64,000 nucleotides of DNA from a virus: positions 48,863 to 112,862 of the IMG/VR virus record IMGVR_UViG_3300033149_004566. One strand, written 5' to 3'. A model generated the notes under the pieces. The model did no database searches. It saw nothing but the letters and a program-made list of their open reading frames with translations, and was not told where the DNA came from. Of the stretch, positions 1,073 to 46,642 are shown piece after piece. The translations under genes and the position numbers were made by a program. Position 1 is the first letter of the stretch. The number at the start of each line of letters is the position of its first letter.

Positions 1073-1458
1073 TTGAAAAGGGCATGTGCCCTATTAGAGC
1101 CCCACATAGAGCTAAAAAAATACGTGCCATGATTTCCGAGTTTGGATTTCGGATAGGCGACCCCGAGCTCAGATCTCCTTTAACTATGGACTTGCTTTTG
1201 AAAAATAGAGAAAAAATTCAAAAACAAATTGCCGAAGAAACGTCAGAAACTGCTCTGGAAATGCTGAATAAATCTCTAAATAAATTGAATGACAGGATAA
1301 AGTATCGCGAGGAAATGTTGCGGACGGTTTTATATCCGAAGGGTAAAGTTCCTTTCTCGATACAAAAAAAGTTTCCGATGTCGTTCTGGTCTACTAAAGG
1401 TGGGTTGAGAAATGTTCAAACGGTTGGTGTGAGAAGGCGTGGACGTAAGAAGCATTAG
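1069..1458 (+). CDS. Hypothetical basic protein, possible small-terminase position
   Basis: 129 residues from a TTG start that overlaps the previous stop (TTGA). A Lys/Glu-rich helical stretch lies in the middle (residues about 45-85, likely coiled coil) and the C-terminus is very basic (RRRGRKKH). It directly precedes and overlaps the large terminase by 20 bases. Small terminases usually sit here, but no helix-turn-helix is evident, so the role is inferred from context only. Confidence 0.6.
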   Translation: MIEKGMCPIRAPHRAKKIRAMISEFGFRIGDPELRSPLTMDLLLKNREKIQKQIAEETSETALEMLNKSLNKLNDRIKYREEMLRTVLYPKGKVPFSIQKKFPMSFWSTKGGLRNVQTVGVRRRGRKKH

Positions 1459-3127
1459 TCCGTTTTTGGATGATTTTCTAAAAAAATACGATTTCAAGGG
1501 CATGGATGATAACAGAATCATGAAGATGCTCTTGTCGTCTTTAGATTGGTCTACGTTTGCGGAAACGTGGTTTAGAAACCCAATAGATCCCACGCTACCA
1601 TTAAAATTGGAAAAGTTTCAGCGCCGCATCATAAATTATTTTCAATACGGCAAGTGCAGTAACATAATTGTCAAGTGCCCCCGTCAATTTGGTAAAACCA
1701 CTCTCATATCGATATTGTGTAATTTAATTGCCATTTTTGATCCGGGTGCTAAGATAGGCCTATTTTCTACATCACACGACCAGTCCAAGGAGATATTGGG
1801 TAAGGTCAGGAAATTCATGAGAACGTCGGCATTTTCTTACTTACTTGACGATAAAAGCGTTCAAACGCAAACCGAAATAAATTATAAGGATCCTCGCGGC
1901 CTTGGGCATGGGTGCAGGATTAAAGCGTATTCTAGTTCTGGCAAAACCGTTCGTGGCCCCGATTTGACTTACACGTTTATGGATGAAATGGGCCAAATGG
2001 ACGACGACTTCGTAAATCAGGTTGTCCGTCCGATGGGAAGGGCTGTTGGAAAGAAAGAACTCGGGGCAAGCACTCCTTTCGGTACGAGGGGCGAGTTTTG
2101 GAACTCACATGAGAAGCCGTATCATTGGGAATGTCAATCGTGTCATGCTAAGGGCTTTGATGAACCACACCCTTACACGTGCCCGAAATGCGGCGGTTCA
2201 GTTCAGACTCTTGGCCAATATAAAGTGTTTGATGTTTCACCTCTTGACGTGTCTTGGATCACGCCCGAAAAACTTGCGGCAGAAGCTGCACGTCTCGGCC
2301 CGATTGCAGCGCAACAGGAGCTGTTTGGAGAGTTTATCCCGGCCGGAGATACTTATTTTAGACACGACTGGATAGTGAATGCCAGGGTTTTCACGCCAGA
2401 GCAAAATTCAAGATTTTCATCCATGGGAAAACCGTATTATACCTATTATCTTTCCACGGATTATGGTAAACAACGTGATAGAGGCGTGATCATGATAGGC
2501 CATTTTCAGGATGACGTGTTGTATCTGGATTGGGTCGAATCACATCTAAAAATGCCGTATCCAAGATTTCAAGATAGAATGAAAACTCTTTGTGATAGAT
2601 ATAATGTTTCAGAGGCCATTTTGGATGGGAACGGTGTCGGAATTGCTCTCATAGATTATCTCCGCGAGGACGTGCAGGTGCCGATTTTTACCAACAAGCC
2701 CGATTTGGGCCCCGGATATAAGTACGGTAACAAGGAGAAATTTCAGATGTTGGAAGCTCTTGCCAACATGTTGATACGGAAGAGAGTTCGTTGGCCGTAT
2801 CATGAAAATCACTCTGACCCGAGGCAGGAAATGTATGAGTTATACATGATGGAGCAGGAGCTCATCAATTATTCTTATGAATGGGGAAAATCGTCAATCA
2901 TAATGGGAACTCAGAGCGAGCACGACGATAGGGTCATGGCTTTGGCACAGCTCGTTGGGGCAACAATGATGACACATTTTGACGATGTCATGCCGTATGG
3001 GGCTTCTGACGTGTCAAGAGATGATCGCGGATGGCCGGTTTTTGACGAGGTCGGGGAAGAATTTGACGTGATGTGGGTTGATAACACGACGGATCCGGAG
3101 TACGAAATATATGACACCATCTTCTGA
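1439..3127 (+). CDS. terL: Terminase large subunit (packaging ATPase/nuclease)
   Basis: 562 residues, GTG start. It is the motor that translocates DNA into the prohead and cuts the concatemer. The ATPase domain has Walker A CPRQFGKTT (residues 80-88) and Walker B YTFMDEM (178-184, Asp182-Glu183). The RNase H-fold nuclease has its acidic residues in STDYGK (Asp341), ILDGNG (Asp396) and HDDRV (about 495-499). A four-cysteine zinc ribbon is inserted between the domains (CQSC at 232-235, CPKC at 248-251), which is uncommon for terminases but known in some. Length is normal. It overlaps the preceding gene by 20 bases and leads into the PE-TFS gene. Confidence 0.95.
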   Translation: MDVRSISPFLDDFLKKYDFKGMDDNRIMKMLLSSLDWSTFAETWFRNPIDPTLPLKLEKFQRRIINYFQYGKCSNIIVKCPRQFGKTTLISILCNLIAIFDPGAKIGLFSTSHDQSKEILGKVRKFMRTSAFSYLLDDKSVQTQTEINYKDPRGLGHGCRIKAYSSSGKTVRGPDLTYTFMDEMGQMDDDFVNQVVRPMGRAVGKKELGASTPFGTRGEFWNSHEKPYHWECQSCHAKGFDEPHPYTCPKCGGSVQTLGQYKVFDVSPLDVSWITPEKLAAEAARLGPIAAQQELFGEFIPAGDTYFRHDWIVNARVFTPEQNSRFSSMGKPYYTYYLSTDYGKQRDRGVIMIGHFQDDVLYLDWVESHLKMPYPRFQDRMKTLCDRYNVSEAILDGNGVGIALIDYLREDVQVPIFTNKPDLGPGYKYGNKEKFQMLEALANMLIRKRVRWPYHENHSDPRQEMYELYMMEQELINYSYEWGKSSIIMGTQSEHDDRVMALAQLVGATMMTHFDDVMPYGASDVSRDDRGWPVFDEVGEEFDVMWVDNTTDPEYEIYDTIF

Positions 3128-3884
3128 CTTGCGGCCGAAAATATCCCTTTTTACGTTATTGCCTTACGTGATTCAGGAGCATAAAGCCAAGCGTGCCGGC
3201 TTACACTACGACTTTCGCGTGAAGCGCGGCGAAAATGATTGGGAATCCTGGGCGATAAGAAAGGGATTTCCGAAAAAGCCCGGGATAAAACATCTGGCCG
3301 CACCGACGCCGAGTCATGATGAATATTGGGCAAAATTTAGCGGCGTCATACCCAGGGGTTACGGCTCCGGTAGACAGAAAGTCGTTGAAAGCGGAAAAAT
3401 AGACGTGATAAGGGAGCGAAAGAAAAAAAATAAATCGATTACTTTCAAAAAGGGAAAAGATTATTACACCATGATAAAGTTAAAAAAGGGAAAAAATTGG
3501 TTGATTTTTAAAAACGAGTCGGTGAAGTGGCGCAGGACGAAGAGCGGGGGCAAATTTCCGAAGATCGATGAGATGGAAAAGGGAATGCCAAAAATGACGA
3601 ACAAGCAATATAAGGAGTTTTACAAGCGGATGTTGGACTTGGGCTTGTTGAATCAATATAAAACGATTGGTAAGCCCATAAAACAGGATCATGGGGGCAT
3701 ACCCATAATAGAAGATGGAATGTCGGCTCTTTCGGCTTATCCTACAGCTATAGGGGAAGTGTGTCCGAAATGTGGACACCCGGAAATAAAAACGTGGCAG
3801 CGTCAGACTAGATCTGCTGACGAACCGATGACGCAGTTTTTCAGATGTGTCAGGTGCGGATATACCTGGAGGGAATACGATTGA
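3111..3884 (+). CDS. LigD-type 3'-phosphoesterase fused to TFIIS/TFS zinc ribbon
   Basis: 257 residues from ATG 3111, with GGAG at 3097-3100. Residues 18-135 match the LigD 3'-phosphoesterase (PE) domain, which trims 3' ribonucleotides and phosphates at DNA ends. Seen are YVIQEH (His24), LHYDFR (His32, Asp34, Arg36), a WAIRKG strand, TPSHDE (His69), FSGVIP and the closing WLIF strand. The two-residue insert before LHYDFR is as in stand-alone archaeal PE proteins. Residues 218-257 are a TFIIS/TFS C-terminal zinc ribbon: CPKC (218-221), QTRSADEP with the catalytic Asp237-Glu238 hairpin, and CVRC (246-249). In TFS this ribbon enters the RNA polymerase funnel and triggers transcript cleavage. I know of no such fusion. 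It lies between terL and portal. Confidence 0.9.
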   Translation: MTPSSDLRPKISLFTLLPYVIQEHKAKRAGLHYDFRVKRGENDWESWAIRKGFPKKPGIKHLAAPTPSHDEYWAKFSGVIPRGYGSGRQKVVESGKIDVIRERKKKNKSITFKKGKDYYTMIKLKKGKNWLIFKNESVKWRRTKSGGKFPKIDEMEKGMPKMTNKQYKEFYKRMLDLGLLNQYKTIGKPIKQDHGGIPIIEDGMSALSAYPTAIGEVCPKCGHPEIKTWQRQTRSADEPMTQFFRCVRCGYTWREYD

Positions 3885-4192
3885 GCGTGACGTATAACGG
3901 TTACACGGCAATACAGCCGAGAGTCATGTTGAAAGAATATATTAAGAGGACAAATAATATTCCAGAAAGACGCGATGATAAATATGATAGAAATCCGAAA
4001 GGAAAACATGCTAAATTAAAAACAAAAGAACCGAAGAGACCCAAATATGATAAGAGTAATAGTAAGCCCGGACTTACCGATGATCAGATTCGTGGAAACC
4101 CGAAGGATTGGAAAAATTATACGATCGTGTTAAAAAATGTCAAAAAGATGCCGAAAATGGTTTTTGATCAATATGAGAGGTGTAGGGTTTAA
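3881..4192 (+). CDS. Hypothetical lysine-rich protein between PE-TFS and portal
   Basis: 103 residues from TTG 3881, chosen because GGAGGG at 3868-3873 sits 7 bases upstream and the TTG overlaps the preceding stop (TTGA). An upstream in-frame ATG at 3845 would lie inside the zinc-ribbon gene. The middle is very rich in Lys, Pro, Arg and Asp and looks disordered. The stop overlaps the portal ATG (TAATG). No family recognised. Confidence 0.6.
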   Translation: MSVTYNGYTAIQPRVMLKEYIKRTNNIPERRDDKYDRNPKGKHAKLKTKEPKRPKYDKSNSKPGLTDDQIRGNPKDWKNYTIVLKNVKKMPKMVFDQYERCRV

Positions 4193-6003
4193 TGGACGAC
4201 GAATATGACGCATGGATGGACGTGTACAAGCCGGAAAGAGTTGAAATTGAGAATTATGAAGATATAAATGATCTTTCTAATAGCATCGTGTCCATGGAGG
4301 TTGGGTACGAAGTTGCCATAAATATAGAAGATACGGCACAGGAAGACGTCAATTGGTATTATCAAACGCAGGACGAAGAAATACGCCGCCTGAAAAGGCA
4401 TCTCATTAAAAAAACACCGCAAAATTTGAGTTGGGCGTTTTGGGAAGATGATACTGCACAAGCATTTGCCATGGTTATAACTTATACTATAATAGGTGAT
4501 GGCATAAGAGTGCGACCGAGAAAGGACGGCTTGAAGAAAAAGAAAAAAGAAAAATTAGAAAGAATTATAGATGATTTCAATAACAATATCAACGAACGCG
4601 GAGAAGACGTGTATGATATAATTCATCAAGCCGTGATAGGTAACGTGATACATGGAAAACAATTATTTAAAAAGGTGTTTAGAAAAGATCCGTACACTGG
4701 AAAGGAATATTTGTCTCTTTATGAAATAGACATGAGAACCATATCTGAACTTGTAAATCCCATTCATGGATACAGGAAGTTCGTGCAGGATCATTACATT
4801 AATGAAGAATTGCGCGACATTGATAGAAAAACATTCATGGAAACGTACGATCCTTTTATAAATCCGGAAGATAAAAAAGTGATTAATATGGGAATTGCGA
4901 GGCACAGGGTTCCGGTTTATGATAATGAAGTTCTTTTCTTTAAATTTTATAAAAAGCCCCCAATGAGATCTATTGTTGATCTAATAGTTTATAAAAAATG
5001 GATTTATTATTTCATGAAACAGGCCGCCAAAGTTAGGGGCGTTCCGCCTCCAGTAATTACCGTTGGCAATCAGCAGAGCCATCCGACTTCACGTGATTAT
5101 CCAAAGTATCTAAAAAGGGCCGCTCAAATTGGTGGAAAATTAAAAAATTGGGATGCCCTTTCGATGCCTTGGAATTGGGCAGTACAGTGGATGGAAGGTG
5201 GAAGGCCGTTTGATTTCACGCCACATCTTCAATTTATCAATAGGAGAATTGTTTTCTCATTGCTCGGTTCGATATCTCTCTTGGAAGGCGCATCTGGAGA
5301 GCTTCATGGCCATGTCATAGAAACGGTTTGGCTTCGTGTAATTTCAGCATTTAGAAGAAAAATAGCTAGGGTGTTAGAAAAGTGCTACAATGAAGTACTC
5401 AAGATGAATGGCATCAACGAGGAAGTTGTCATTGAGTGGACGCCTTTACGTGAGCCCATTAGTAAAGCTGAAATTGCCGCGATATTATCATCGTTATTCC
5501 AATTGAATGCTCTGAAGGATGTTAATGAGTTACGTGAATTATTTTCAAAGAATGGCATAATAGATTTGTCTCCGATGGATGAAGATGAAGAAGAAAAAGG
5601 CTACGCTGGTACCGGAGTTGAAGAATTGATAACGTCGGTTATGCCGGTACAAATGGAAAATAAAATATTAAAACAAAAACTCGAAGAATTTAGTAAAACT
5701 GGCGATTTCAATAGAAAACAAGTTCACGTGAAAAATTTAAAAAGAAGCCTGTCGATGTTGAACAATTCTTTGGGAACTGAACAGGCAAGACCCGAAAAAG
5801 CCGTGAAAAAACCGTCGATAAAAACTCCCATGAATCCAAAACCGGATTCACTTGGTCATTCATCTTTGAAGATACCATCTTTGAAGGTAAAAAAGGAAGG
5901 ACAGCAATACATGGAAGCATCATCCGACGATGAAAGCACGTGTTATGAGGAAGACGGCGTGAAAAAAGGATATTGCCCGGAGGAAATAAAAAATGGAAAA
6001 TGA
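4192..6003 (+). CDS. Portal protein
   Basis: 603 residues. The portal is the dodecameric ring at the unique capsid vertex through which DNA passes. Evidence is position after terL, length, and the layout of a phage portal: an N-terminal alpha/beta region, a GNVIHGKQLF-type central segment, a YDNEVLFF strand followed by a long helix, then a region resembling the clip and stem (WNWAVQWMEGG, LLGSISLLEGASG). An acidic linker (DEDEEE, about residue 470) and a disordered basic C-terminal tail with two Cys follow. The tail contains the GGAGGA that serves the next small gene. Confidence 0.85.
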   Translation: MDDEYDAWMDVYKPERVEIENYEDINDLSNSIVSMEVGYEVAINIEDTAQEDVNWYYQTQDEEIRRLKRHLIKKTPQNLSWAFWEDDTAQAFAMVITYTIIGDGIRVRPRKDGLKKKKKEKLERIIDDFNNNINERGEDVYDIIHQAVIGNVIHGKQLFKKVFRKDPYTGKEYLSLYEIDMRTISELVNPIHGYRKFVQDHYINEELRDIDRKTFMETYDPFINPEDKKVINMGIARHRVPVYDNEVLFFKFYKKPPMRSIVDLIVYKKWIYYFMKQAAKVRGVPPPVITVGNQQSHPTSRDYPKYLKRAAQIGGKLKNWDALSMPWNWAVQWMEGGRPFDFTPHLQFINRRIVFSLLGSISLLEGASGELHGHVIETVWLRVISAFRRKIARVLEKCYNEVLKMNGINEEVVIEWTPLREPISKAEIAAILSSLFQLNALKDVNELRELFSKNGIIDLSPMDEDEEEKGYAGTGVEELITSVMPVQMENKILKQKLEEFSKTGDFNRKQVHVKNLKRSLSMLNNSLGTEQARPEKAVKKPSIKTPMNPKPDSLGHSSLKIPSLKVKKEGQQYMEASSDDESTCYEEDGVKKGYCPEEIKNGK

Positions 6004-6404: not shown

Positions 6405-8663
6405 ATGATACCCGTGTCCGTATTGATGGAACCGCCCAAGGTGGTAAAAGATCCTTTAAAATCATCGTCATTGATAAAGTCATTCGTGATGATGAATAAA
6501 ATGAAATTTAAGGGTCTGGTTCCAAAAATAATGGACGCTATCAGGCAATCCAGGCGCGTTGTTCAGATGGAAACCGGTGCACGATATCTCAAGAGATACA
6601 TCGATAACATGTTATATAATAGCATTGTCGATCCGCATTTATTGGATAGGATGAAGTCATTCGTGGAAAACACGTATATTCAACACTCTAGAATGTTGCA
6701 AGAAGAATTGTATAAATTGAAGATGGTTCCCACGACAATGGCCGTCATGACTCCTACTGATGAGGACAGGGTAGAGGATAGAAAGGATACTATAGAAAAA
6801 ATGGCAAGCCTGGAAGCCGAACGCTTGAGTGCGAGGATTCATGACATAATAGATAGGGCTTATCATAATGCCGAACCGTTATACAAAATAAAAAAAGAAC
6901 TACAAAAATCCATAAAAGTTAGCAAGAAAGAATCCGCTAGAATTGCCAGAACCGAGCTCATAAAAACCATGAACTTGGCCAGGTTGGAACGTATGACTTC
7001 ATCGGGGATCGAATATTATCAGTGGGTTTCGGCTCCTTCGTTTGATGAGAGATTGTGTCCTTTATGTGGCGAATTAAATGGAAAAGTAATAAAGTTGGGC
7101 AGGTCGTTTTCGGATTTAGTGCGAAACGAATCATCCAAGAAAATAATGGGAACTAGACAGATCTATTATCCTCCGGCACATCCGAATTGCAGGTGCACTA
7201 TAAGGCCATCTTATGCTCCGGTAATTACCAGGCCGTTAAAAGAACCGAAATTTATAAAGAAAATATTCGATAAGTTTCCTGGCTTGAGGCCCAAAACCTT
7301 GATAACACAAAAGATCGGCCCGACTTCGATAGATATCATACAGGCGGAAGAATTAGAGGACTGGCACGAATTGCACGATTTATATTTAAATGAATCGAAA
7401 AGATGGGGTGGCGATCTTCGTAAGCGATTGATATATCAGGCGATGGAAGCAAAAAATAGGGCAATGAAGGAAGACATAGAATTATTCGAGCGCGATAACT
7501 TGGAGGAAATGGAAAAGCCGAAATGGACGCATTATCCTTTAACAAAAGATGAAATTTATTATCATTATGCGCGAAATTGGGATAAATTGTATCCGGAATT
7601 GAAGGGCCGAAGAGTGGCGATCCGTAACCGCAGGGGCGTCATTTTACGTAATTGGGAGCCCGGTGGAAAGCCCATAGAAATAAAAAATAAAAATGATTTA
7701 AAAAAAGTAGTCTATAATAAAAATGCGGTTGAATTGATTCCGGAGTTGAGCACCAAAAGGATGAAACCATCAAATACAAGAAGGTTTCTCGTGGATTTAG
7801 ATTCAAATAGACCGATAGACGAGACGGTTGTCAAAAAAACAGTTGAAAAAATGAAAACGCTGCCGGTCAATAATGTTCAGGTTATATTTTCCGGGAAGCG
7901 TGGATATCACGTTAGAGGTGATACAAAAAAGAGTTACACGTGGAAAAAAGCGAGAAAAATGCTTCGTGAGGCGATGAAGCCTCTATCAGAACAATACAAT
8001 GATATAATTTTTGATTTATCACCCATGAAAAGACGTGGAGTTAGTGTATCTCCTTATAGTTTGAGATATTTGCCGACAGAAAGACAGGGCGTTGCACATC
8101 ACGTGCAATTTGAAGAGTGGTATGAAAAGGGTGCGTTAGGCACGCGGGACATAATTCCGGAAAAATTAAAATTGCCTAGCGGAAGAAATGCTTTCTTCAG
8201 GAAAACGTTTCTTGGCATCCAAAAACGAAAGTTGTATACCGAACAGGAATATAAATTGCAGGCGGCTTTACCGATCATATCGGCATTGAAACACGATCTC
8301 GATTTATCCGATTCGGTACAAAAAGAAGCGAAAAGGATATTTAAAAAGGCTTATAGTAGCGGGATAACACAGGGTAGAAAAACATCGTCCAATGCCGCGG
8401 TATCTGTTTACAATGCCATGAGATCGTTGGGAATGAGCAGGCCGATAAAAGATTTTCTTCCGCATGCAAATGTAAAGACCGGATCTTTTGTCAGGGCGGT
8501 TAAAAAATTTCAGGACGCTTTAAACTTGCCAAAATTTAAAGTCGGAAAGCGCGCCGACGTGGAAGAGGCAAGAAAGTATTATAAAAGCATGAAACGTACC
8601 GGTATAAGCAAGCGTAAAGTTGCAAGAATGTTTGGCGTGTCTCCGTCGAGTATAGGTGATTAG
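6405..8663 (+). CDS. MuF minor head protein fused to LigD-type polymerase and TFB cyclin domains
   Basis: 752 residues. (1) About 40-270: MuF/SPP1 gp7 minor head domain, with IARTELIKTMNLAR, LCPLCGELNG and the closing PPAHPNCRC; such proteins enter the prohead and can be ejected with DNA. (2) About 375-590: a LigD-Pol-type archaeo-eukaryotic primase/polymerase (AEP). Its N-terminal LTKDEIYYHYA...LYPELKGRR matches the LigD-Pol entry segment. Motif I is VDLDS (Asp464, Asp466), motif II FSGKRGYH (His502), and motif III IIFDL (Asp537) followed by SVSPYSLR. (3) About 618-710: one TFB/TFIIB cyclin repeat, including LDLSDSVQKEAKRIFKKAY and AAVSVYNAMRSLGMSRPIKDF, then a helix-turn-helix (735-750). 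All AEP catalytic residues are present. I know of no precedent for this domain order. Confidence 0.88.
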   Translation: MIPVSVLMEPPKVVKDPLKSSSLIKSFVMMNKMKFKGLVPKIMDAIRQSRRVVQMETGARYLKRYIDNMLYNSIVDPHLLDRMKSFVENTYIQHSRMLQEELYKLKMVPTTMAVMTPTDEDRVEDRKDTIEKMASLEAERLSARIHDIIDRAYHNAEPLYKIKKELQKSIKVSKKESARIARTELIKTMNLARLERMTSSGIEYYQWVSAPSFDERLCPLCGELNGKVIKLGRSFSDLVRNESSKKIMGTRQIYYPPAHPNCRCTIRPSYAPVITRPLKEPKFIKKIFDKFPGLRPKTLITQKIGPTSIDIIQAEELEDWHELHDLYLNESKRWGGDLRKRLIYQAMEAKNRAMKEDIELFERDNLEEMEKPKWTHYPLTKDEIYYHYARNWDKLYPELKGRRVAIRNRRGVILRNWEPGGKPIEIKNKNDLKKVVYNKNAVELIPELSTKRMKPSNTRRFLVDLDSNRPIDETVVKKTVEKMKTLPVNNVQVIFSGKRGYHVRGDTKKSYTWKKARKMLREAMKPLSEQYNDIIFDLSPMKRRGVSVSPYSLRYLPTERQGVAHHVQFEEWYEKGALGTRDIIPEKLKLPSGRNAFFRKTFLGIQKRKLYTEQEYKLQAALPIISALKHDLDLSDSVQKEAKRIFKKAYSSGITQGRKTSSNAAVSVYNAMRSLGMSRPIKDFLPHANVKTGSFVRAVKKFQDALNLPKFKVGKRADVEEARKYYKSMKRTGISKRKVARMFGVSPSSIGD

Positions 8664-8664
8664 A

Positions 8665-9231
8665 TTGCCGATAACAGTAAAAATGAGCTCTTTAAAATTA
8701 AAAAGGTTGATTCCACAGGCAATATATCATATAAAAAGCGAAGCCGCGCAAATATTGATGTTTAGCATAATAGAAGTTTTCATGCAACAGGGACTTCCGG
8801 ATGAACAATGGAAGCAGTTGTCGGCGATAACTGTCGAGAAAAAACACTCCAGATCTATTTTGATAGATAAGGGATTTTTGATGAACTCCATTACGGTTGG
8901 GCCAATCGATGTTGATAAACCCGTGGAAGTTGGAATATTTGAAGGGCCCGCTCTCAGGTATGCTTGGATACATGAGTTTGGTGGCACGATTCCGGTTACT
9001 GACAGCATTAGAAAATTTTTTATAGCAAAGACCGCAGAAGAACGAAGACAACGTCCAGGATTGCCTGAAGATTCTTACACGTGGCATCCTTTGAGAAATG
9101 ATACTAACGTGATATCAATTCCGGCAAGACCCTTTATGAGGTGGGGCGCCATCATTGCACGTCCTAAAATTAGTAAAATGGCTGAAAGAGTTTGGTATAC
9201 GATGATTAATCAGGGATTGATAATTAAATGA
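8665..9231 (+). CDS. Virion morphogenesis protein, Mu gpG-like tail completion
   Basis: 188 residues from TTG 8665, with GGTGAT at 8655-8660 five bases upstream; a GTG at 8656 is the alternative. The sequence shows the pattern of the gpG/HK97 gp10 group: a GFLMNSI strand, YAWIHEFGGTIPV in the middle, and ISIPARPFMRWG near the end. These proteins act at the head-tail junction, commonly next to MuF proteins, as here. It shares ATGA with the following nucleotidyltransferase. Confidence 0.75.
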   Translation: MPITVKMSSLKLKRLIPQAIYHIKSEAAQILMFSIIEVFMQQGLPDEQWKQLSAITVEKKHSRSILIDKGFLMNSITVGPIDVDKPVEVGIFEGPALRYAWIHEFGGTIPVTDSIRKFFIAKTAEERRQRPGLPEDSYTWHPLRNDTNVISIPARPFMRWGAIIARPKISKMAERVWYTMINQGLIIK

Positions 9232-10064
9232 AAACATTACCCATTTATACGTTGCAAGACACTCTAAATCCTGAAATTTGGATAGGAGATGGTAAAAATG
9301 CAAGATTGCGAAAAAAAATTAAAAATGTCATCATGGATTCCGTTCGTAAATCTTTGGATAAATACGGTGGTAAGCCAAAGCGTATCATCATCGTTGGCTC
9401 CTCTGTTGCTTATAGATGGCGAAAAGACGGTGATATTGACGTACACGTTGAGGGAAAATTTCCCATCAATGACTATGAGGTGGACGAATATAAAATACCC
9501 GGATCAAAATTGACTATAGAGGTGGTATTAACCAATCAAAAATTTCCCAGTACAACGCGCGCTGAGGGCGTTTATAACGTGGTGATGGATAAATGGATTA
9601 AAACTCCAGAACGATTTCCGGGCAAGGTTTATTGGGATCCATTAATAGAGGAAGCGTCTTCATGGGCTAGAAAGGTGGATCTCGATATGGGCGAATTAAA
9701 ACGCGATCTTCTCGAATATATTTTATATAAAGAGAATGGCGGCGACGAGTCTGCCCTTGCAAGAAAAGCCGACGAAATAAAATCCGATTTGAATAGCATT
9801 GTTGATACTTGGGATGCTCTAAAAAATGAAAGAACGAAGGCACTTTCCGGCGATTCCGACGACACGAGGTTTTTTAAAAATCCGAGCAAGTCATCCATGT
9901 TGCAACCGGAAAATTTGATATTTAAAATACTGCAGAGATTTCAGTACAACGATTTGATGAAGCGCGTGAAACAACTCGTCAGGGATCTTCAGGACGAGAC
10001 GAATTTTGATGTTATTGAGAGGATAATAACGAGATTTTTGAAGAAGGAAAGGTGGATTAAATGA
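9228..10064 (+). CDS. Pol-beta superfamily nucleotidyltransferase
   Basis: 278 residues. The N-terminal half has the Pol-beta nucleotidyltransferase signature: IIIVGSSVAYRW (Gly57-Ser58) followed by GDIDVHV (Asp69, Asp71), with a third acidic residue in KLTIEVVL (Glu98). These enzymes transfer NMPs to nucleic acid, protein or small molecules. The C-terminal half is helical and unrecognised. It overlaps both neighbours by ATGA and stands inside the head operon, near the LigD-type PE and Pol domains. That raises the possibility of a joint role in DNA-end metabolism, but the substrate cannot be read from sequence. Confidence 0.75.
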   Translation: MKTLPIYTLQDTLNPEIWIGDGKNARLRKKIKNVIMDSVRKSLDKYGGKPKRIIIVGSSVAYRWRKDGDIDVHVEGKFPINDYEVDEYKIPGSKLTIEVVLTNQKFPSTTRAEGVYNVVMDKWIKTPERFPGKVYWDPLIEEASSWARKVDLDMGELKRDLLEYILYKENGGDESALARKADEIKSDLNSIVDTWDALKNERTKALSGDSDDTRFFKNPSKSSMLQPENLIFKILQRFQYNDLMKRVKQLVRDLQDETNFDVIERIITRFLKKERWIK

Positions 10065-12098: not shown

Positions 12099-12527
12099 AT
12101 GACAAATGTAAATTACATATTGAAACGAGATTTTCCGATCACGTTTGAAGCCACCGCAACAGAAGATTTGGGTATGGATAGTACCGGCAAAACATGGCCG
12201 GAAGCACCGGATACGACTGTTGGGTTATTGCTTCAATTTACAGGCGACGATCAGGTGGGATTGTGCGATCCGTCCAGTGGAACGTACTTTGCTGGAGTTA
12301 GTGAAATTCCAGTTTATTCCGGGCAAAAAGCCACGGTTAGAACATCAGGAATCATTTTGGTTGTTGCTGGCGAAACAATAGTCGCGGGACAACACGTGAA
12401 AGTTGACGAATCCACGTCTCAACGAGTTGCAGTAGCAGGCGCAACGGAAGCCACCAAGATTATTGGTAGAGCAATAACTGGCGGAAACGACGGAGACACG
12501 ATAAAAATCTTATTGAGAGGTTATTAA
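12099..12527 (+). CDS. Capsid decoration protein
   Basis: 142 residues, all-beta with many small residues: GLCDPSSGTYFAGVSEIPVYSGQ, then VVAGETIVAGQHVKVDE and a closing GGNDGDTIKILLRGY. This is the pattern of DUF2190-like decoration proteins, which stabilise the HK97 lattice and are encoded just before the capsid gene, as here. One base separates it from the next ATG. Confidence 0.7.
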   Translation: MTNVNYILKRDFPITFEATATEDLGMDSTGKTWPEAPDTTVGLLLQFTGDDQVGLCDPSSGTYFAGVSEIPVYSGQKATVRTSGIILVVAGETIVAGQHVKVDESTSQRVAVAGATEATKIIGRAITGGNDGDTIKILLRGY

Positions 12528-12528: not shown

Positions 12529-13467
12529 ATGAGTGTTACACATTTAGCTAATACAGCATTACATCCGAGAGTTATTCTTGCAATCGCTGTAAAGCGAGCG
12601 CAGGGTGCGATGATCAGTACCGATTTCTTACCGGAACGTCCAGTAAATAATAAGGTATTTGAATATCGCGAGTACGGTCAAACAGATCGTGAAATCGGAA
12701 CGTTGGCTCCGGAAGTAAATGAAGGCGATACTACACCATTGGACAAACTTGGATACGAGATGCGAGTTAAACGAGCAAAGGAAATACGTTTGGGAACTCT
12801 AATTACAGAACAAGCACAAAAGTTCTTGTTTAGAGATGTGGTTAAAGACCACGTAACATATATTACGGATCGAATTGCTCTTAAACAGGAATCTATGGCA
12901 TTCGACGAATTATTTGAGGTAAGTTCTGTAACCGGTGCTTTAAAAACGACTAAAGATCTGACAACGTCATGGGACGAAACCGATGCCGAAATCCTTAACG
13001 ATTTAGCCGATGCTAAGAAACGGTTTAGGGATATTGCTCACGTCATTCCGGATTCTTTGGTTGTTGGTAGCGATGGTGAGAATGCTTTACTAAAGTCAGT
13101 TGAAATGAAATTATGGAGATATTCCGGGCCTTTCACTCAAACACCGATCATTGAAGGAACGATTGGTCGTCTTAGGGGATTGGACGTGTGGGTTACGGAT
13201 GCGGTTAAATTAAAAGATAATACAGATCCTACGGCTGGATTAATTCCGATTGTTCAGGATCGCGTTTTGGTCACGCGAAGAGGGCCAGATCTGGGTTTTA
13301 CTGCTATTGCCGAACCTTTTAATTCGCGACGAATTCCCAAGCCAGGTCGTCGATCCATCATGCTTCAAATGTTTAAGACATTTTTACCGGTGATCATACG
13401 ACCCAGGCGCATCTACATAATTAACAATATCAGTTCGTCTTTATCAACTGATACTGCTTTATCGTAA
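12529..13467 (+). CDS. Major capsid protein, HK97 fold
   Basis: 312 residues. It follows protease and decoration genes and is followed by a strong terminator, the usual setting of the capsid gene. The sequence fits gpE/HK97-type capsid proteins: an N-terminal region with LPERPVNNKVFEYREYG (E-loop type strand), a long helix QEKF-like region (LGTLITEQAQKFLFRDVVKDH), a central DSLVVGSDGENALL segment (A-domain) and a closing LGFTAIAEPFNSR strand. No long cleaved scaffold segment is visible, since the scaffold is encoded upstream. Confidence 0.85.
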   Translation: MSVTHLANTALHPRVILAIAVKRAQGAMISTDFLPERPVNNKVFEYREYGQTDREIGTLAPEVNEGDTTPLDKLGYEMRVKRAKEIRLGTLITEQAQKFLFRDVVKDHVTYITDRIALKQESMAFDELFEVSSVTGALKTTKDLTTSWDETDAEILNDLADAKKRFRDIAHVIPDSLVVGSDGENALLKSVEMKLWRYSGPFTQTPIIEGTIGRLRGLDVWVTDAVKLKDNTDPTAGLIPIVQDRVLVTRRGPDLGFTAIAEPFNSRRIPKPGRRSIMLQMFKTFLPVIIRPRRIYIINNISSSLSTDTALS

Positions 13468-13511: not shown

Positions 13512-14690
13512 ATGAAAAGAATACTTTTTTGTTCCGATAGTCCACTTGTAAATAGTGGGTTCGGACACCAATTACACGGTATATTGACGGGATTGAAACA
13601 ATTATATCCCGGAGCATACGATTTACATTGTATCGGATGGCAATACGTTGGCAGGCGATTGAATGTTGACGGATATACATTGTGGTCTAGAAGTGCCATG
13701 GGGTTTGGTGTTGACGTTACATCCGATTACTTGAATATATTAAAACCGGATATTTTATTTACTTTGGGCGATTTATGGATGATTGAATGGTTGACAAACG
13801 TAGATAGAGATTGTCCTTGGGTCGCTTATTATCCGCTTGATGGCACGCCGTTGCCGAAAAGATGGGTTGAAATAATTAAAAAAATGGATTATCCGGTAGT
13901 TTTTTCAAAATTTGCTTTAAATTTATGTAGAAAAGCCGGATTACGGCCTTATTACATACCGCATCATGTCGATACAAGCGTTTTCTTTCGCTTACCAGAT
14001 GAGACAAGATCCAAGTTAAAGGAAAAGTACGGCATTCCGCCGGATAAAAAGGTAATATTGACGGTTGCACGTCCCAATCCGAGAAAAAAATTGCATCTCG
14101 CGTGTAGAGCTCTGGACTTGTTGTATAAAAAAAGACAGGATTGGGTTTGGTATTATCACGGTGATATGGCTCACGATAAGATGTTGAGCAAGGGAACGTT
14201 CAAGGACGAATTGGAATATTCTTTATTCTATAAAAATGGCGCGTTTAAGAGATCTCATTTTAATTATTTCATGGGCGTGTCGGACGCGCATTTGAACGAA
14301 ATATATAACATGGCTGACGTTTATTTCATGCCAACTGGCGGCGAAGGATTTGGATTAACAGTTTTAGAGGCTGGAATGACCGGGTTACCATCCGTTTTAA
14401 CCGATTATACAACGTCAAGAGAGTTAATTGAGGGCAGAGGAGAATTGATAAATGTTAGATCTTATTCGCCCGATGGAAACTCCGAAGGCGTGTTAAAGGC
14501 CAATATAGATATTTACGATGCGGTAGAAAAACTCGACACGATGCTGTCGAATGATGATTTGAGAAAAGAATACGGTTATAAATGTCAGGAAGAATTCATC
14601 AAGTATGAAAAAATGCTGATAATGCCGATGTGGCACGAATTATTTTCAAAAATAAATTACAATTTGGTGGCTCCGGAATGGCAAGAATAA
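13512..14690 (+). CDS. GT-B glycosyltransferase (GT4-like), first of three
   Basis: 392 residues; AAGGAGG lies 7-8 bases before the ATG, right after the capsid terminator. GT4-type retaining transferase fold: an N-terminal ILFCSDSPLVNSGFG loop for acceptor binding, KKVILTVARPNPRKK at the start of the donor domain, and the donor signature PTGGEGFGLTVLEAGMTG (about 285-305). It transfers a sugar from a nucleotide donor. Its place between capsid and tail genes suggests modification of virion proteins or host surface mimicry. The acceptor is unknown. Confidence 0.85.
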   Translation: MKRILFCSDSPLVNSGFGHQLHGILTGLKQLYPGAYDLHCIGWQYVGRRLNVDGYTLWSRSAMGFGVDVTSDYLNILKPDILFTLGDLWMIEWLTNVDRDCPWVAYYPLDGTPLPKRWVEIIKKMDYPVVFSKFALNLCRKAGLRPYYIPHHVDTSVFFRLPDETRSKLKEKYGIPPDKKVILTVARPNPRKKLHLACRALDLLYKKRQDWVWYYHGDMAHDKMLSKGTFKDELEYSLFYKNGAFKRSHFNYFMGVSDAHLNEIYNMADVYFMPTGGEGFGLTVLEAGMTGLPSVLTDYTTSRELIEGRGELINVRSYSPDGNSEGVLKANIDIYDAVEKLDTMLSNDDLRKEYGYKCQEEFIKYEKMLIMPMWHELFSKINYNLVAPEWQE

Positions 14691-15787
14691 ATCTGACATA
14701 TATGGGACAGGTGGACGATCCATCCGGATATGGTAATGTTGCAAGAAATTACGTGGAAGAGCTTGCAAGAAGAAAAAATATAATTGATTTGAAAGTAATT
14801 CCTATCAATTTCATGCCTAGGTTAAAATGGTCTGAAGAACATCGGGATTTATTATTTAAAGATGGCGATAAAAAAGATATTGTAATACATCATATGACTC
14901 CTGACAATTGGAAAAGTGCGCCGGGAAGAATAAACATAGGATATGCTGCGTGGGAAACTAATATGATTCCGAGATATTGGTTGCCGCACTGCATGATGAT
15001 GGACGAAATATGGACACCGAGCGAATATTCCAGGCAAGCTTTTATTAATTCTGGCATACCTCCAAAAAAAGTGATAGTGATTCCGCACGGGGTTGACGTC
15101 GATAAATTTTCTCCAAATGATATTGCCAAGCTTCAGATGTTAAACAAGGAAAATTTTAATTTTCTTTCGGTATTTCAATGGAATTGGAGAAAAGGATACG
15201 ACGTGTTGTTGAAAGCGTATTTTAGAGAATTTGAAGACGATAGAGACGTGTCTTTAATATTAAAGACGTACGGATTTAACGAATCGGCAGCGGAAAATAA
15301 TAGAATACGAAAAGAGATAATGCATATAAAAGACATGACGATCGGCAACAAAAAAGGCCCGAAAGTGATTTTTATTCGAGGATTTTTACCAATGCCGGAG
15401 TATCTTTATCGTGCATCTGATTGTTTTGTTTTGCCCGCAAGATCTGAAGCGTGGGGCGTCACGTATTTGGAAGCCATGGGTTGTGGAGTTCCGGTGATTT
15501 CCACTAGATATGGTGGACAATTGGAATTTTTAAATGATGACAATTCCATGCTTGTCGAAATCGATGGCGAGGTGCCATGCATGAACATGCACGGTTACAA
15601 ATGGTACGAGCCAACTATGGTTTGGGCCGAACCGAGCGTGACAGATCTGATGGAAAAAATGAGATACATGCGTGAAAACGTGTGGCAGCGCGAAAAAATC
15701 GTTAAAAAAGGCCTTGAAACTGTAGAAAGATGGTCATGGAGTAATGCCGTGAATAAAATTATAACTAGATTAAAGAAAATAACGTGA
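14678..15787 (+). CDS. GT-B glycosyltransferase (GT4-like), second of three
   Basis: 369 residues from ATG 14678, just downstream of a GGTGG; an upstream in-frame start at 14630 is inside the previous gene. Features: N-terminal DDPSGYGNVARNYVEEL, IPHGVDVDKF linker, FQWNWRKGYDVLLKAY at the donor domain, and PARSEAWGVTYLEAMGCGVPVI as the nucleotide-sugar signature. It overlaps the first transferase by 13 bases, so the two are co-translated and probably act in sequence. Confidence 0.85.
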   Translation: MARINLTYMGQVDDPSGYGNVARNYVEELARRKNIIDLKVIPINFMPRLKWSEEHRDLLFKDGDKKDIVIHHMTPDNWKSAPGRINIGYAAWETNMIPRYWLPHCMMMDEIWTPSEYSRQAFINSGIPPKKVIVIPHGVDVDKFSPNDIAKLQMLNKENFNFLSVFQWNWRKGYDVLLKAYFREFEDDRDVSLILKTYGFNESAAENNRIRKEIMHIKDMTIGNKKGPKVIFIRGFLPMPEYLYRASDCFVLPARSEAWGVTYLEAMGCGVPVISTRYGGQLEFLNDDNSMLVEIDGEVPCMNMHGYKWYEPTMVWAEPSVTDLMEKMRYMRENVWQREKIVKKGLETVERWSWSNAVNKIITRLKKIT

Positions 15788-15792
15788 TATAA

Positions 15793-16272
15793 ATGGAGCG
15801 GGCTTTATTATGTACAACTCCTCGTCCTTATACGGGAACTTTTGACATAGATACGGGCGAATTTGATCCTCTTTCTGAACACGTTGAATACATTTCATTG
15901 CCTTCTTCTGATTTTAAATTTGGATTCTTAAAAGGGCATCAAAGTGAGTCAGCGGCGTGTCTTAAAAGACATCCAACATTTATTATGTTTACTACTGATA
16001 TAAATTTTGGAAACTCGATGAGTCCTGATGAAAAAGTTTATTATATTTATGGATACCTCTTTAAGTCGTGGCAATTGAATGGATATTGGTATCAATACGA
16101 CCAGAAACTCTCACCCGATGAGTTTTATGGAACTGTTGCGGGTGGAAGTTGGAGGAGCAGGATAAAGTCTTGCTTTATAGAAAATGATAATATAAAGATA
16201 ACCTGGTATAATCCAGGAACTGCAAACAAGTCGAGAGCATATTTTAAGGGGTCGTATTTTGTCTGGAGATAA
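15793..16272 (+). CDS. Hypothetical protein between glycosyltransferases
   Basis: 159 residues, rich in Tyr, Trp, Phe and Ser, probably beta-structured (YYIYGYLFKSWQLNGYWYQYDQ). No family recognised. It lies between the second and third glycosyltransferases and overlaps the third by 14 bases. It may be a glycan-binding or acceptor protein, which is speculation from composition and context. Confidence 0.55.
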   Translation: MERALLCTTPRPYTGTFDIDTGEFDPLSEHVEYISLPSSDFKFGFLKGHQSESAACLKRHPTFIMFTTDINFGNSMSPDEKVYYIYGYLFKSWQLNGYWYQYDQKLSPDEFYGTVAGGSWRSRIKSCFIENDNIKITWYNPGTANKSRAYFKGSYFVWR

Positions 16273-17434
16273 GTTAAAAGTATTAATGTTGTTGAGAGAA
16301 GACGTGGAAATGCCGTCTGGTGGGATGGGAGTCCATGTTATAAATATTATCAAGTATCTAAAGAATGACTTTGACATTACTATTGGGTGTCTTGCTTGTG
16401 ACCAAGTAACGTTAGTCAAGAAATGGAACGATTGTAGGTTATTAAAAATTGGATGCGAAAATACAATTAATAATACCCTTGAAATGCCGCTCACCGAGGA
16501 AATAATTGAATATAATATTCTTATGAAAATTTTTAGCACGTTTATGAAAGATTGGAAATTTGATATTATCCATATCCATGATAGTCCATTTTGGTTTTGG
16601 GTGTCTAATTTACTTGCACCTTATTATAACTCATCGGTTGTGATGACGGTTCATCTTTCTTATTTTCTCTCGATTACAGCTCCCGATCCTATGAATTACG
16701 CGTTTGAGTTTTATTCTTATCATGTACAAAAAGAAGGACAAGCAATAAACTATTGTGATAATTTGGTAACCGTGTCAAAAAAATATGCGAATTCTTTGAA
16801 GACTTTATTAATTAATGGAAAAAAAATTCACGTCATTCCAAATGGCGTGAATTATGACGAATTGAATAAGGTCAAATATGATAAAAAATTAAAAGAAATT
16901 TTTACCAATGGAAGAAAACTAGCGGTATTCGTGGGGCGAACGGTTTGGACAAAAGGAATTGATATGATATTAGACATTGTTTCCGAATTTCCTGATTATA
17001 ATTTTGTCTTTATTTCTAATATTTCGCCAACACTAGAGCCAATTGTTCCACTTATAGGAAGGATTATAAAATTAATGGATGAGTATGATAACTTGATTTG
17101 GCTTAGAGATGTTGATGATGAAATGAAGTTTAAGATAATGAAAGTAGCAGACGTGGGACTTATGCCATCAATTCATGAACCATTTGGAATTGTGGCTTTA
17201 GAATGGATGGCACTTGGAATTCCATTAATTGTAAGTAATTTAGTTCCACCATGTAATGATGATAATTCTATTTTGATTGAACCAAATTCGGAAGCTTTGG
17301 CTGCTGCTTTGAGAAAATTTGATCCAGATACATACCCCAATTACAAACGACATAATGGAAAAATGAATGCACGTAAACATAGTTGGGATGCAACGGCATC
17401 TAAACTAAAAGAGGTTTATGTTAAATGCCGATAG
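16259..17434 (+). CDS. GT-B glycosyltransferase (GT4-like), third of three
   Basis: 391 residues from TTG 16259, with AAGGGG about 8 bases upstream. GT4 features: VLMLLREDVEMPSGGMGVHV (acceptor loop), IHVIPNGVNYDE, LAVFVGRTVWTKGID at the donor domain and PSIHEPFGIVALEWMALGIP as the donor motif. It is more divergent from the first two than they are from each other, and its codons look more AT-rich, so it may have been acquired separately. Confidence 0.85.
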   Translation: MSGDKLKVLMLLREDVEMPSGGMGVHVINIIKYLKNDFDITIGCLACDQVTLVKKWNDCRLLKIGCENTINNTLEMPLTEEIIEYNILMKIFSTFMKDWKFDIIHIHDSPFWFWVSNLLAPYYNSSVVMTVHLSYFLSITAPDPMNYAFEFYSYHVQKEGQAINYCDNLVTVSKKYANSLKTLLINGKKIHVIPNGVNYDELNKVKYDKKLKEIFTNGRKLAVFVGRTVWTKGIDMILDIVSEFPDYNFVFISNISPTLEPIVPLIGRIIKLMDEYDNLIWLRDVDDEMKFKIMKVADVGLMPSIHEPFGIVALEWMALGIPLIVSNLVPPCNDDNSILIEPNSEALAAALRKFDPDTYPNYKRHNGKMNARKHSWDATASKLKEVYVKCR

Positions 17435-34740: not shown

Positions 34741-35295
34741 ATGATTGAAATAGTTCAACTGATTCTTTTGGTATTGTTGAATTGTTCTATAGGAGCTATA
34801 ACAGCTGGAGTATATCGTTTATGTCAGGAAAATTTAGCCGATGGTCTTCAAAGATCGGAAGCGGTACGCATTCTTCAACAATCTGGATTTGGCGCACTTT
34901 ATGGTAGTCTGGTAGTAGTGGTTTTATGGACTGCAATTGGATGGCTAGTTTTATTTCATCCATGGATGGGCGTGACCATTATTTCTACTATAACTCCCAT
35001 TTTGGGCGGATCGGATCTGACAATCCTTATAAAAAATAAGGTAAAACAATTGATCAGGCCGAAAACGGACGATGAGAAAGCCGTGATAATCAAGGAACAA
35101 CTCGCAGAAATAAAGAATTTACAAGAAACAGTAGAATCTCTAACGGATCAGGTTGATGACTTGTTAAATGGCAAGAATATAGAATTGAGACCACTTCTTA
35201 ATGAACCAAACACAACGGATGTCGAAGATAAAGAGGACAATGAGTTATTAAAAGCTGCAGAGGCACCCAATGGTGATGAAACGGAAGAACTTTAA
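34741..35295 (+). CDS. Membrane protein with cytoplasmic coiled coil, holin-like possibility
   Basis: 184 residues. Three hydrophobic segments: residues 3-25 (VQLILLVLLNCSIGAITAGVY), 48-72 (GALYGSLVVVVLWTAIGWLVLF) and 75-90 (MGVTIISTITPILGG). They are followed by a charged tail with heptads (KEQLAEIKNLQETVESLTDQVDDLL). Size and position after the tail fibres fit a holin or a lysis-related membrane protein, but no lysin was found nearby. Overlaps the next gene by 26 bases. Confidence 0.5.
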   Translation: MIEIVQLILLVLLNCSIGAITAGVYRLCQENLADGLQRSEAVRILQQSGFGALYGSLVVVVLWTAIGWLVLFHPWMGVTIISTITPILGGSDLTILIKNKVKQLIRPKTDDEKAVIIKEQLAEIKNLQETVESLTDQVDDLLNGKNIELRPLLNEPNTTDVEDKEDNELLKAAEAPNGDETEEL

Positions 35296-35938
35296 AACGT
35301 TGGAAAAAATATACACGCGAGTTTTTCTCGCACCATTTTTTATTTTATCCATCATTACGCTGATGGGTTGCTACTTGCATTATCCCGTGCAAATAGTGTC
35401 GTTCATCTGTGCCATGCTCTTATTGGTTGATGTGGAGCTCTATTACTTGGGAATGACCAAGCGAGATCTAGAGAGAAGATTTGGAATGAGCACCGGTAAG
35501 CTGGCATTATCAAAACATGTTTTGAGAAAACAGATATTCAATTTTATAAGATACGATTTGAGAATTTATATTTTTGCATTATTATCGTTGATATTTTTCA
35601 TAATTTCATTATACGGCGCGACTTTTATAATACCAATGATATATAGTTATGCGCCGTTTCTCATATTTTCCACTACAATACCACAATCTTACAAGTTAAA
35701 AAAATTGGGCAATGAGGCTTGTCAAATACAGAAAAAATGCCACGAGCAAATAGAAATGATTACTAGAACGTATTCAAAGATGGATGTAGGTAGCAGGAAG
35801 TATGCATCCAGAGAAATAAGAAATAAGTCCATGATAGCAAAAAGACAAGTTGAATTCATTGAAAAAACTACTGCCGGAATGAATTATAAGTTTGAAATAT
35901 TCAAGTACGTGTTTACTGCAATAGTATTATTATTATGA
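35270..35938 (+). CDS. Membrane protein with four predicted spans
   Basis: 222 residues from ATG 35270 (ATG 35276 also possible). Hydrophobic hairpins at about 18-60 (APFFILSIITLMGCYLHYP...VSFICAMLLLVDVEL) and 98-145 (IYIFALLSLIFFIISLYG...YSYAPFLIF), a charged cytoplasmic helix, and a short hydrophobic C-terminus. No family recognised. Co-transcribed with the preceding membrane protein and the ParA-like gene. Confidence 0.55.
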   Translation: MVMKRKNFKTLEKIYTRVFLAPFFILSIITLMGCYLHYPVQIVSFICAMLLLVDVELYYLGMTKRDLERRFGMSTGKLALSKHVLRKQIFNFIRYDLRIYIFALLSLIFFIISLYGATFIIPMIYSYAPFLIFSTTIPQSYKLKKLGNEACQIQKKCHEQIEMITRTYSKMDVGSRKYASREIRNKSMIAKRQVEFIEKTTAGMNYKFEIFKYVFTAIVLLL

Positions 35939-37402: not shown

Positions 37403-37756
37403 TTACAACCTTCCTAACACGTCTTTTAACGTGTCTGTTACCGTTAGAGGAATGTTTTTTATTTTTTCTTTACTTTCGGTGTTATCTTTTTTATATTTTA
37501 CGTGTTTCATTACAATGTACCACATCTGTATTATAAATGCGGCCAGATGTGTCAACTTCATGGTATCTCCATTCTCTATCTCTATAAAAGTCTCGAGAAG
37601 AGAATTAAGATCTTCTTCAAATTTACTTCCAGAAAAATCTCCTGCTGTTATGTGTAGCAGGTAAATCATTTCCATGGTTTCCGCAAAGTTTAATTTCTCG
37701 CGGAATAATTTATTTTTTAACTCGTATTTTCTTTTATCAATATCTACGCTTTTCAT
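37403..37756 (-). CDS. Hypothetical helical protein at the end of the knuckle array
   Basis: 117 residues, mostly helical and charged, with no cysteines and none of the knuckle motif of its upstream neighbours. EEDLNSLLETFIEIENGDTMKLTHLAAFIIQMW is a possible coiled coil plus hydrophobic helix. It overlaps the upstream gene by 4 bases. Function unknown. Confidence 0.55.
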   Translation of the reverse strand: MKSVDIDKRKYELKNKLFREKLNFAETMEMIYLLHITAGDFSGSKFEEDLNSLLETFIEIENGDTMKLTHLAAFIIQMWYIVMKHVKYKKDNTESKEKIKNIPLTVTDTLKDVLGRL

Positions 37757-38142
37757 GTTCTATCACGCATTATATTTAATATGTTTCTATCATTATTTAT
37801 TTTTTTTACCATATATTTAAATATGGTATCTTCGGATAAGTGTGTTATTATGACCGATGGATTACTTAAGGCACACATGATGTTTTCTTCGGTCGGGTTT
37901 TCATCGCAAATGTATGAACAATCCTTGCACGGATTGCATGATTTGCAATAATATTCGAGAGCGGCCTTGATAAATAAGTCTATGATTATCGAACCAGTAT
38001 TTTTCTTGAATCTGGTAATCATCCCGAAAAAATCTCCATCTGTTATTCTTTTATTATTCGGTTGTTTACCAGACATCTTACATATTATTAAGTTTCCATA
38101 TAAATTATAAATGATGACATTTGTTATTTCCACAATTATCAT
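37753..38142 (-). CDS. Knuckle-array protein 15
   Basis: 129 residues. Core YCKSCNPCKDCSYIC (C-x2-C-x2-C-x2-C plus one more Cys) around residue 66-80. The C-terminal helical part (LSEDTIFKYMVKKIN) matches the array pattern. The N-terminal segment, FFGMITRFKKNTGSIIIDLFIKAALEY, is longer than in most members. Last member in transcription order. The cysteines probably bind Zn; an Fe-S cluster is less likely. Confidence 0.6.
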   Translation of the reverse strand: MIIVEITNVIIYNLYGNLIICKMSGKQPNNKRITDGDFFGMITRFKKNTGSIIIDLFIKAALEYYCKSCNPCKDCSYICDENPTEENIMCALSNPSVIITHLSEDTIFKYMVKKINNDRNILNIMRDRT

Positions 38143-38507
38143 CCTTCTACAGTTCTATAAATTTTGAGCAAGCGTCTTATTTCCGGAATCGTAAGCTCGT
38201 CAATAATATCTTCTATCTGGAACTCATCGAGATAGTTTTCAATGTTTCCCCATGTGTTTTCGACGATCTTTATCAGATCATCATGGTTGCATCTTGCCGG
38301 CAGCGTGCATTTTCTACCGGCACATATACGACAGTTTTTTACATGGGGATTATTATATATTATCGAACACACGTCATATTTGGTCATCAAATTTGTCTTT
38401 TCTATTATAAATTTAACGATGTCTGAAATAGCGTCTTGATCGTATTCATCTTTTATGAACACTTTTTTTAATATTATGTTGCCAGACAATATTTCCATGC
38501 ATATCAT
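38139..38507 (-). CDS. Knuckle-array protein 14 (divergent spacing)
   Basis: 122 residues. Cysteine core is CRICAGRKCTLPARC, so spacing is C-x2-C-x4-C-x5-C rather than the array's regular C-x2 ladder. Helical C-terminus IEDIIDELTIPEIRRLLKIY matches the array's closing helices. ATGA overlap with member 15. Confidence 0.6.
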   Translation of the reverse strand: MICMEILSGNIILKKVFIKDEYDQDAISDIVKFIIEKTNLMTKYDVCSIIYNNPHVKNCRICAGRKCTLPARCNHDDLIKIVENTWGNIENYLDEFQIEDIIDELTIPEIRRLLKIYRTVEG

Positions 38508-38872
38508 GTATTCATCTCCACCAGATATTTCATGATTAGATAGTCGAGCGGCAATTTTTCAGTTATTTTGTCCTTTGACACGAACTTCAATATTGATTTC
38601 ACGTCGTAATATTCTCTTATGACAATACTAAATGGCGTTGTAGTGTAGTCGATCTCAACCAGATGACAGTCCAGACATTTTTTACAATTAAACCAATAGC
38701 ATTCTATTTCTCTCATTAGCATATCTCCGTATTTTTTTTGTATTTTTTTCCAATCATTGAAATCTCTTGACGCTTGCCTGATCTCCAAGTAAACGTAATA
38801 TCGTTCGGCTTTTACTGAAGTTCTCTCCATGATGGCATTTTCTTTGTATATTTTACAAGTTACAACGTTCAT
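38504..38872 (-). CDS. Knuckle-array protein 13
   Basis: 122 residues. Core CYWFNCKKCLDCHLVE (C-x4-C-x2-C-x2-C) near residue 58-69. The N-terminus starts MNVVTCKIYKEN in the same short-strand style as the others. C-terminal VKSILKFVSKDKITEKLPLDYL is the conserved helical end. Overlaps member 12 by 20 bases. Confidence 0.6.
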   Translation of the reverse strand: MNVVTCKIYKENAIMERTSVKAERYYVYLEIRQASRDFNDWKKIQKKYGDMLMREIECYWFNCKKCLDCHLVEIDYTTTPFSIVIREYYDVKSILKFVSKDKITEKLPLDYLIMKYLVEMNT

Positions 38873-40125: not shown

Positions 40126-40126
40126 C

Positions 40127-46638: not shown

Positions 46639-46642
46639 GTTT

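Follow-up and report, generated by a model that had tools for sequence, protein, structure and literature searches.

Introduction

Most of what is known of MuF fusions concerns bacterial phages, in which they carry toxin-like domains. Polymorphic MuF toxins with variable C-termini have been described (PMC5576092), and such fusions are considered to be effectors that are delivered (PMC5512222). A 2017 survey of polyvalent proteins found their PrimPol domains to be limited to conjugative elements and archaea to be poor in such proteins, the words LigD and TFIIB being absent from its text (PMC5512222). Two further precedents are of interest here: virion RNA polymerases, like conjugative primases, work on DNA as it enters the cell (PMC5512222), and one archaeal virion protein, ORF145/RIP of ATV, acts on host RNA polymerase (PMC5123050). 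In archaeal NHEJ, a polymerase (Pol) adds ribonucleotides and displaces strands, whilst a 3'-phosphoesterase (PE) trims the excess such that ligation becomes possible; the two enzymes cooperate biochemically (PMC4797286).

Here, we describe a virus with genes of archaeal type in which relatives of both of these NHEJ end-processing halves lie in the head module, each tied to part of a basal transcription factor; a combination for which our search of openly licensed papers returned no report. The window analysed (64,000 nucleotides) covers positions 48863–112862 of an IMG/VR virus record of 112,862 bases.

Results

The head-gene block and its likely host

The structural genes that surround the locus, all on the plus strand, are as follows:

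1439..3127, + strand: terminase large subunit (phrog_2, 4.6e-30)
4192..6003, + strand: portal-like protein (by size and position only; no profile match)
8656..9231, + strand: neck / tail completion protein (phrog_26, 9.6e-16)
12099..12527, + strand: head scaffolding-like protein (phrog_673, 1.8e-9)
12529..13467, + strand: major head protein (phrog_1650, 2.3e-14)

Reading along the late strand, we see the terminase, a PE-TFS fusion, a 115-aa ORF, the portal-like gene, an 86-aa ORF, a MuF-Pol-TFB fusion and the neck gene; then a possible nucleotidyltransferase (0.0025, under the cut-off), the scaffold-like and major head genes, glycosyltransferases, sheath and baseplate. The MuF gene thus lies in a head/packaging block, with terminase, neck and major head genes nearby and the portal assigned by position. 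Glycosyltransferase-like genes occupy 13512–17434 (+), between the major head protein and the tail genes, the first of them (13512–14690) matching phrog_2170 at 5e-36.

Elsewhere, the record encodes PolB, a primase-like gene and other DNA genes. Taken together with the TFB and TFS matches described below, PolB and the primase-like gene indicate that this tailed virus probably has an archaeal host. Neither Ku nor an ATP-dependent DNA ligase domain (PF01068) was matched anywhere in the 112.9-kb record, which therefore holds no complete end-joining set. A KLDG-motif protein at 62790–63869 (−) is most likely the record's one match to a T4 Rnl1-type RNA ligase (PF09511, 1.7e-17). Outside the window, a corrinoid-protein-like gene at 34813–35571 of the record (−; L003:14813–15571), the one B12-binding match present (3.2e-25), might be a pointer to a methanogen host.

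One uninterrupted frame joins a MuF domain to two further modules

The first of the two fusion genes is composed of the following parts:

6405..8663, + strand: MuF – LigD-type Pol – TFB-repeat fusion protein, 752 aa
6819..7232, + strand: MuF minor head domain, aa 139–276 (PF04233 1.2e-14; phrog_595 1.8e-21; phrog_115 1.2e-19)
7497..8129, + strand: LigD/NHEJ-type polymerase domain, approximately aa 365–575 (D464, D466, H502, D537, S552)
8226..8543, + strand: single TFB/TFIIB cyclin repeat, aa 608–713 (PF00382 3.1e-12; phrog_20431 9.1e-10; 1d3u 1.7e-7)
8550..8654, + strand: probable C-terminal helix-turn-helix, aa 716–750 (helices at pLDDT 70–84; weak match to phrog_517, 0.049)

The frame runs uninterrupted from an ATG at 6405 to the stop at 8663. 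Its start lies 3 bases past the end of the preceding ORF and its end overlaps the next start (GTG, 8656), an arrangement as in a polycistronic late operon. G+C remains at 39–42% over all domains; this even composition, and the tight packing of the neighbouring genes, make a chimeric join unlikely. An internal start at M369, beside the polymerase domain, was considered and set aside, as the GGAGG lies only two bases upstream of it; too close to convince.

Working from the N-terminus, the Phage_Mu_F match spans aa 145–266 and scores 55.5 bits against a curated Pfam cut-off of 29.6; the SPP1 gp7 domain is also recognised (NCBIfam TIGR01641, 3.2e-15), as are many PHROG head families. The first-pass annotation, made from the letters alone, had proposed a single 752-residue frame with a MuF head domain, and had described MuF fusions as carriers of cargo: the frame is indeed open over 2.26 kb with no stop, the head domain is found by all three profile collections, and MuF proteins are documented as effector carriers (PMC5512222). 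With a MuF domain, polymerase and TFB repeat on one polypeptide encoded in the late block, the protein combines several effector or enzymatic domains and is a polyvalent protein in the published sense (PMC5512222). Structure prediction for the whole fusion protein gave a pLDDT of 45 and was not used as evidence for either the polymerase or the TFB repeat. No close relatives were found when the whole fusion protein, the terminase and the PE protein were used as queries.

The middle domain resembles the polymerase of LigD

Pfam returned no match to the middle domain of the fusion protein, and the match to TIGR02778 (ligD_pol; 1e-4, 22 bits) lies far under the curated cut-off of 214.7. The assignment is carried by profile comparison: aligned with hhalign to a profile built from five LigD polymerases, the domain gives a P of 1.2e-6 over 205 columns, the N-terminal segment being covered, with a score of 50.1 versus at most 18.4 in 60 shuffles. 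The primase-like protein of the same virus aligned to that profile over only 45 columns. D464, D466, H502, D537 and S552 are invariant in an alignment with five bacterial and two viral LigD polymerases; the catalytic Asp-x-Asp (D464, D466), the SGxxGxH motif (H502) and the third Asp (D537) are all kept. A profile of the domain together with its relative from the viral contig L030 reached E ≤ 0.001 only for the NHEJ polymerases of Mycobacterium, Methanocella and Pseudomonas, a supporting rather than independent result given that L030 is itself a clear LigD polymerase. Used as a single sequence, the domain found Methanocella NHEJ Pol as its best PDB match, at an insignificant 0.35.

Correspondence extends in part to the 5'-phosphate pocket of NHEJ polymerases (Lys16, Lys26, Asn13), where the two lysines have counterparts in K371 and K381 and Asn13 is replaced by Glu; Arg407 may be the counterpart of the strictly conserved Arg53, going by a gapped alignment. 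The phenylalanine pair, like Asn13, is not evident in the alignment. We conclude that the middle domain is a diverged LigD/NHEJ-type polymerase; the LigD-Pol assignment with intact catalytic residues proposed at first pass thus holds in the profile alignment, the shuffle test and the invariant residues alike.

A single TFB repeat and a probable helix-turn-helix

Beyond the polymerase, PF00382 matches aa 617–703 above its curated cut-off, and the best solved structures for this repeat are those of archaeal TFB (1d3u/1ais; 1.7e-7, phmmer versus PDB), in keeping with the earlier call of a TFB/TFIIB cyclin repeat. It is the only TFIIB match in the 112.9-kb record. The zinc ribbon, linker and second cyclin repeat of TFB are all absent from the fusion protein, which carries one PF00382 repeat only; with a single repeat, no zinc ribbon and no second repeat, it is not a TFB. 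Promoter recruitment in archaea needs TBP and a full TFB. The further proposal that the TFB part guides the polymerase to promoters is consequently unsupported in that form and speculative, there being just the one repeat. The helix-turn-helix that follows is probable, judged by eye from the sequence and from a locally acceptable part of an otherwise poor model.

A partner gene couples a PE domain to a TFS ribbon

Three ORFs upstream of MuF-Pol-TFB, between the terminase and portal-like genes, lies a second fusion:

3078..3884, + strand: LigD 3'-phosphoesterase fused to a TFS/TFIIS zinc ribbon (partner gene), 268 aa
3159..3518, + strand: LigD PE domain, aa 28–147 (H35, H43, D45, R47, H80; PF13298 8.1e-16)
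3753..3881, + strand: TFS/TFIIS-type zinc ribbon, aa 226–268 (RSADEP acidic hairpin; PF01096 1.2e-17; TIGR01384 (TFS_arch) 1.3e-13)

Here, both modules are recognised well above threshold. PF13298 scores 58.5 bits against a cut-off of 31.1, and the protein retains five of the six residues described as catalytic in archaeal PE; the remaining one, a Tyr in the archaeal enzyme, is replaced by Trp84 at a position that varies among viral PEs in the alignment. AlphaFold models the PE part at a pLDDT of approximately 97, and the best Foldseek matches are archaeal PEs (3p4h, 3p43), the Pseudomonas PE and Methanocella PE 5dmp, with TFIIS and RPB9 ribbons among the weaker ones. For the ribbon, PF01096 scores 63.8 bits against a cut-off of 21, with the RSADEP acidic hairpin present; TFS_arch is matched only over positions 56–101 of 101, and neither an N-terminal ribbon nor a full TFS was found in the protein. 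No other significant TFIIS ribbon was matched in the record.

The head-gene block thus encodes the two LigD end-processing partners, Pol and PE, and in each gene the enzyme is linked to a module from a basal transcription factor. The first-pass annotation had overlooked this partner gene and pictured an isolated, injected polymerase; its domain calls stand, and the presence of PE-TFS points instead to the processing of DNA ends.

LigD parts in other viral contigs

Searching with the PE profile identified twelve viral loci. In one 159-kb contig (L030/L032; L032:577–15533), successive ORFs encode a ligase domain (5.3e-29) and a LigD Pol (4.8e-15), with PE (1.1e-26) following after one intervening ORF and a head-maturation-protease polyprotein a few ORFs further; in L031 (5988–9364), the tape-measure gene is preceded by a ligase ORF (4.7e-23) and the gene for a Pol-PE protein. 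As here, these split sets place LigD parts among virion genes with no Ku; unlike here, a ligase is present and a MuF domain is not, the carrier of the L030 Pol having a rubrerythrin-like domain in place of MuF. Two other loci hold a PE-ligase fusion (L027) and PE joined to PolX domains (L022). Neither Ku nor MuF was matched in these PE-profile records, which may be fragments. LigD parts without Ku inside virion-gene clusters therefore appear, from these contigs (L030/L032, L031), to be recurrent; fusions to MuF and to TFB/TFS were found only in this virus, and the searches found no relative with the same fusion or the same C-terminus.

Several candidates did not hold up. L024, at first taken as a PE-TFS relative (match over aa 22–266), proved from its sequence to hold PE next to a ligase-like KxDG stretch, and L034, from a scan for the TFS ribbon, is a zinc-ribbon protein without PE. 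A DNA pattern for FSGKRGYH gave nine stretches, the translated ones being large terminase-like ORFs in which the peptide occurs by chance, with no polymerase; scanning with the Pol alignments led back to L030 and, beyond that, to a single bacterial locus. Within the window, comparison of the 9228–10064 protein with the C-terminal portion of Pol-PE from L031 did not establish homology (best E 0.015, over 42 aa only).

Other features of the window

On the minus strand, 43309–53456 encodes three ThiF/E1-like proteins (3.7e-32, 6.7e-20, 1.3e-8), an AAA ATPase, a weakly VWA-like protein and two JAB-like proteins under the cut-off, one of which (52677–53456) carries an HxH...SxxD motif; two similar proteins of 93–98 aa at 46357–46939 (−) look ubiquitin-like by eye. 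The cluster is possibly a viral ubiquitin-like conjugation pathway. At 37753–42857 (−) are some 15 small Cys-containing ORFs in tandem, many of them mutually similar (for instance 39510–39830 versus 39808–40125; 42%, 4e-17), and at 57070–60158 (−) seven related Cys-rich ORFs, of approximately 140–170 aa, form another array.

Discussion

The reading we prefer, whilst holding it tentatively, is of a split, Ku-less LigD end-processing pair in the virion module of a tailed, probably archaeal virus. The MuF domain would fix the polymerase to the head interior or neck, next to the portal; Pol would fill gaps with ribonucleotides and extend primers, and PE would strip 3'-phosphates and 3'-ribonucleotides. 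Together, the two could process ends, nicks and gaps of the viral DNA during cell entry, leaving a host ligase to seal the product, with the TFB repeat and its helix-turn-helix, and likewise the TFS ribbon, tethering the enzymes to DNA or to host TBP/RNA polymerase. The arrangement is suggestive of a repair ‘kit’ that accompanies the viral DNA into the cell. A more specific form, in which a virion-packaged, Ku-less end-joining/priming kit docks on the archaeal transcription machinery through the TFB repeat and TFS ribbon, and thereby directs repair or priming of the incoming DNA to the sites of host RNA polymerase loading, strikes us as unlikely.

Each of the two LigD modules, encoded separately, has its own kind of basal transcription-factor module attached, and these are the record's only TFIIB repeat and only significant TFIIS ribbon; this can also be read as a sign of host takeover or early priming. 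The TFB repeat would recruit injected Pol to TBP, promoter DNA or RNA polymerase, whilst the ribbon would direct PE to the secondary channel of RNA polymerase, the outcome being priming of viral replication from transcripts or a disturbance of host transcription. The retained RSADEP hairpin and the ATV ORF145/RIP precedent of a virion protein acting on host RNA polymerase (PMC5123050) both agree with this, but the single repeat lacks a TFB zinc ribbon and could simply bind DNA, and the TFS part lacks its N-terminal ribbon; we regard such a role as somewhat unlikely. Repair confined to assembly, with head-bound Pol and PE mending nicks, gaps and ends during packaging and nothing injected, would suit a PE gene lying between the terminase and portal-like genes, a Pol carried on a head protein, and a virus that has its own PolB and primase-like gene available for replication. 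It leaves the transcription-factor modules unexplained, however, and the general interpretation of MuF fusions is one of delivered cargo (PMC5512222), such that this seems quite unlikely to us.

Less probable again is that the C-terminal part is a passenger. MuF genes acquire variable C-terminal domains, as the polymorphic MuF toxins illustrate (PMC5576092), and Pol-TFB, for whose C-terminus no relative was found, might act against the host or competing elements or be a DNA-binding remnant; yet the catalytic residues of Pol are intact, and random cargo would not explain a functionally matching PE three ORFs away. That unrelated genes were joined in frame during assembly we consider highly improbable: the fusion is indeed on one contig only, but composition is even, the frame is open for 2.26 kb between tightly spaced neighbours, and a second LigD-plus-transcription-factor fusion lies within the same block.

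Should the preferred reading of a packaged end-processing pair hold, viruses would mend or prime their own entering DNA by means of packaged NHEJ enzymes without Ku, and detached TFB/TFS modules would serve archaeal viruses as tethers. The partner gene makes the functional idea testable, and two proteins suffice for both ideas. LigD parts recur in further virion-gene clusters, hinting at a wider theme, one for which we found no name in the literature searched.

How, then, does the locus compare with the described systems? With MuF effector fusions and polyvalent proteins it shares the MuF domain, the enzymatic domains, the multi-domain build and a place in a virion gene block; the cargo here, in contrast, is a LigD-type polymerase with a TFB repeat. 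With bacterial LigD it shares homologous Pol and PE domains and their catalytic residues, and with the NHEJ system of Methanocella paludicola (5dmu/5dmp) also their encoding by separate genes. It departs from archaeo-prokaryotic NHEJ in that the record holds no Ku or ligase and the domains reside on virion-module proteins along with transcription-factor modules. ATV ORF145/RIP (PMC5123050) is an unrelated helical protein with no enzyme domain. The virion RNA polymerase of N4-like phages is, as here, a nucleic-acid polymerase encoded with virion genes, and that of N4 is injected (PMC5512222); the enzymes are unrelated, however, and in the present virus anchoring to the head would be by way of MuF, with delivery into the cell a likeness that we propose.
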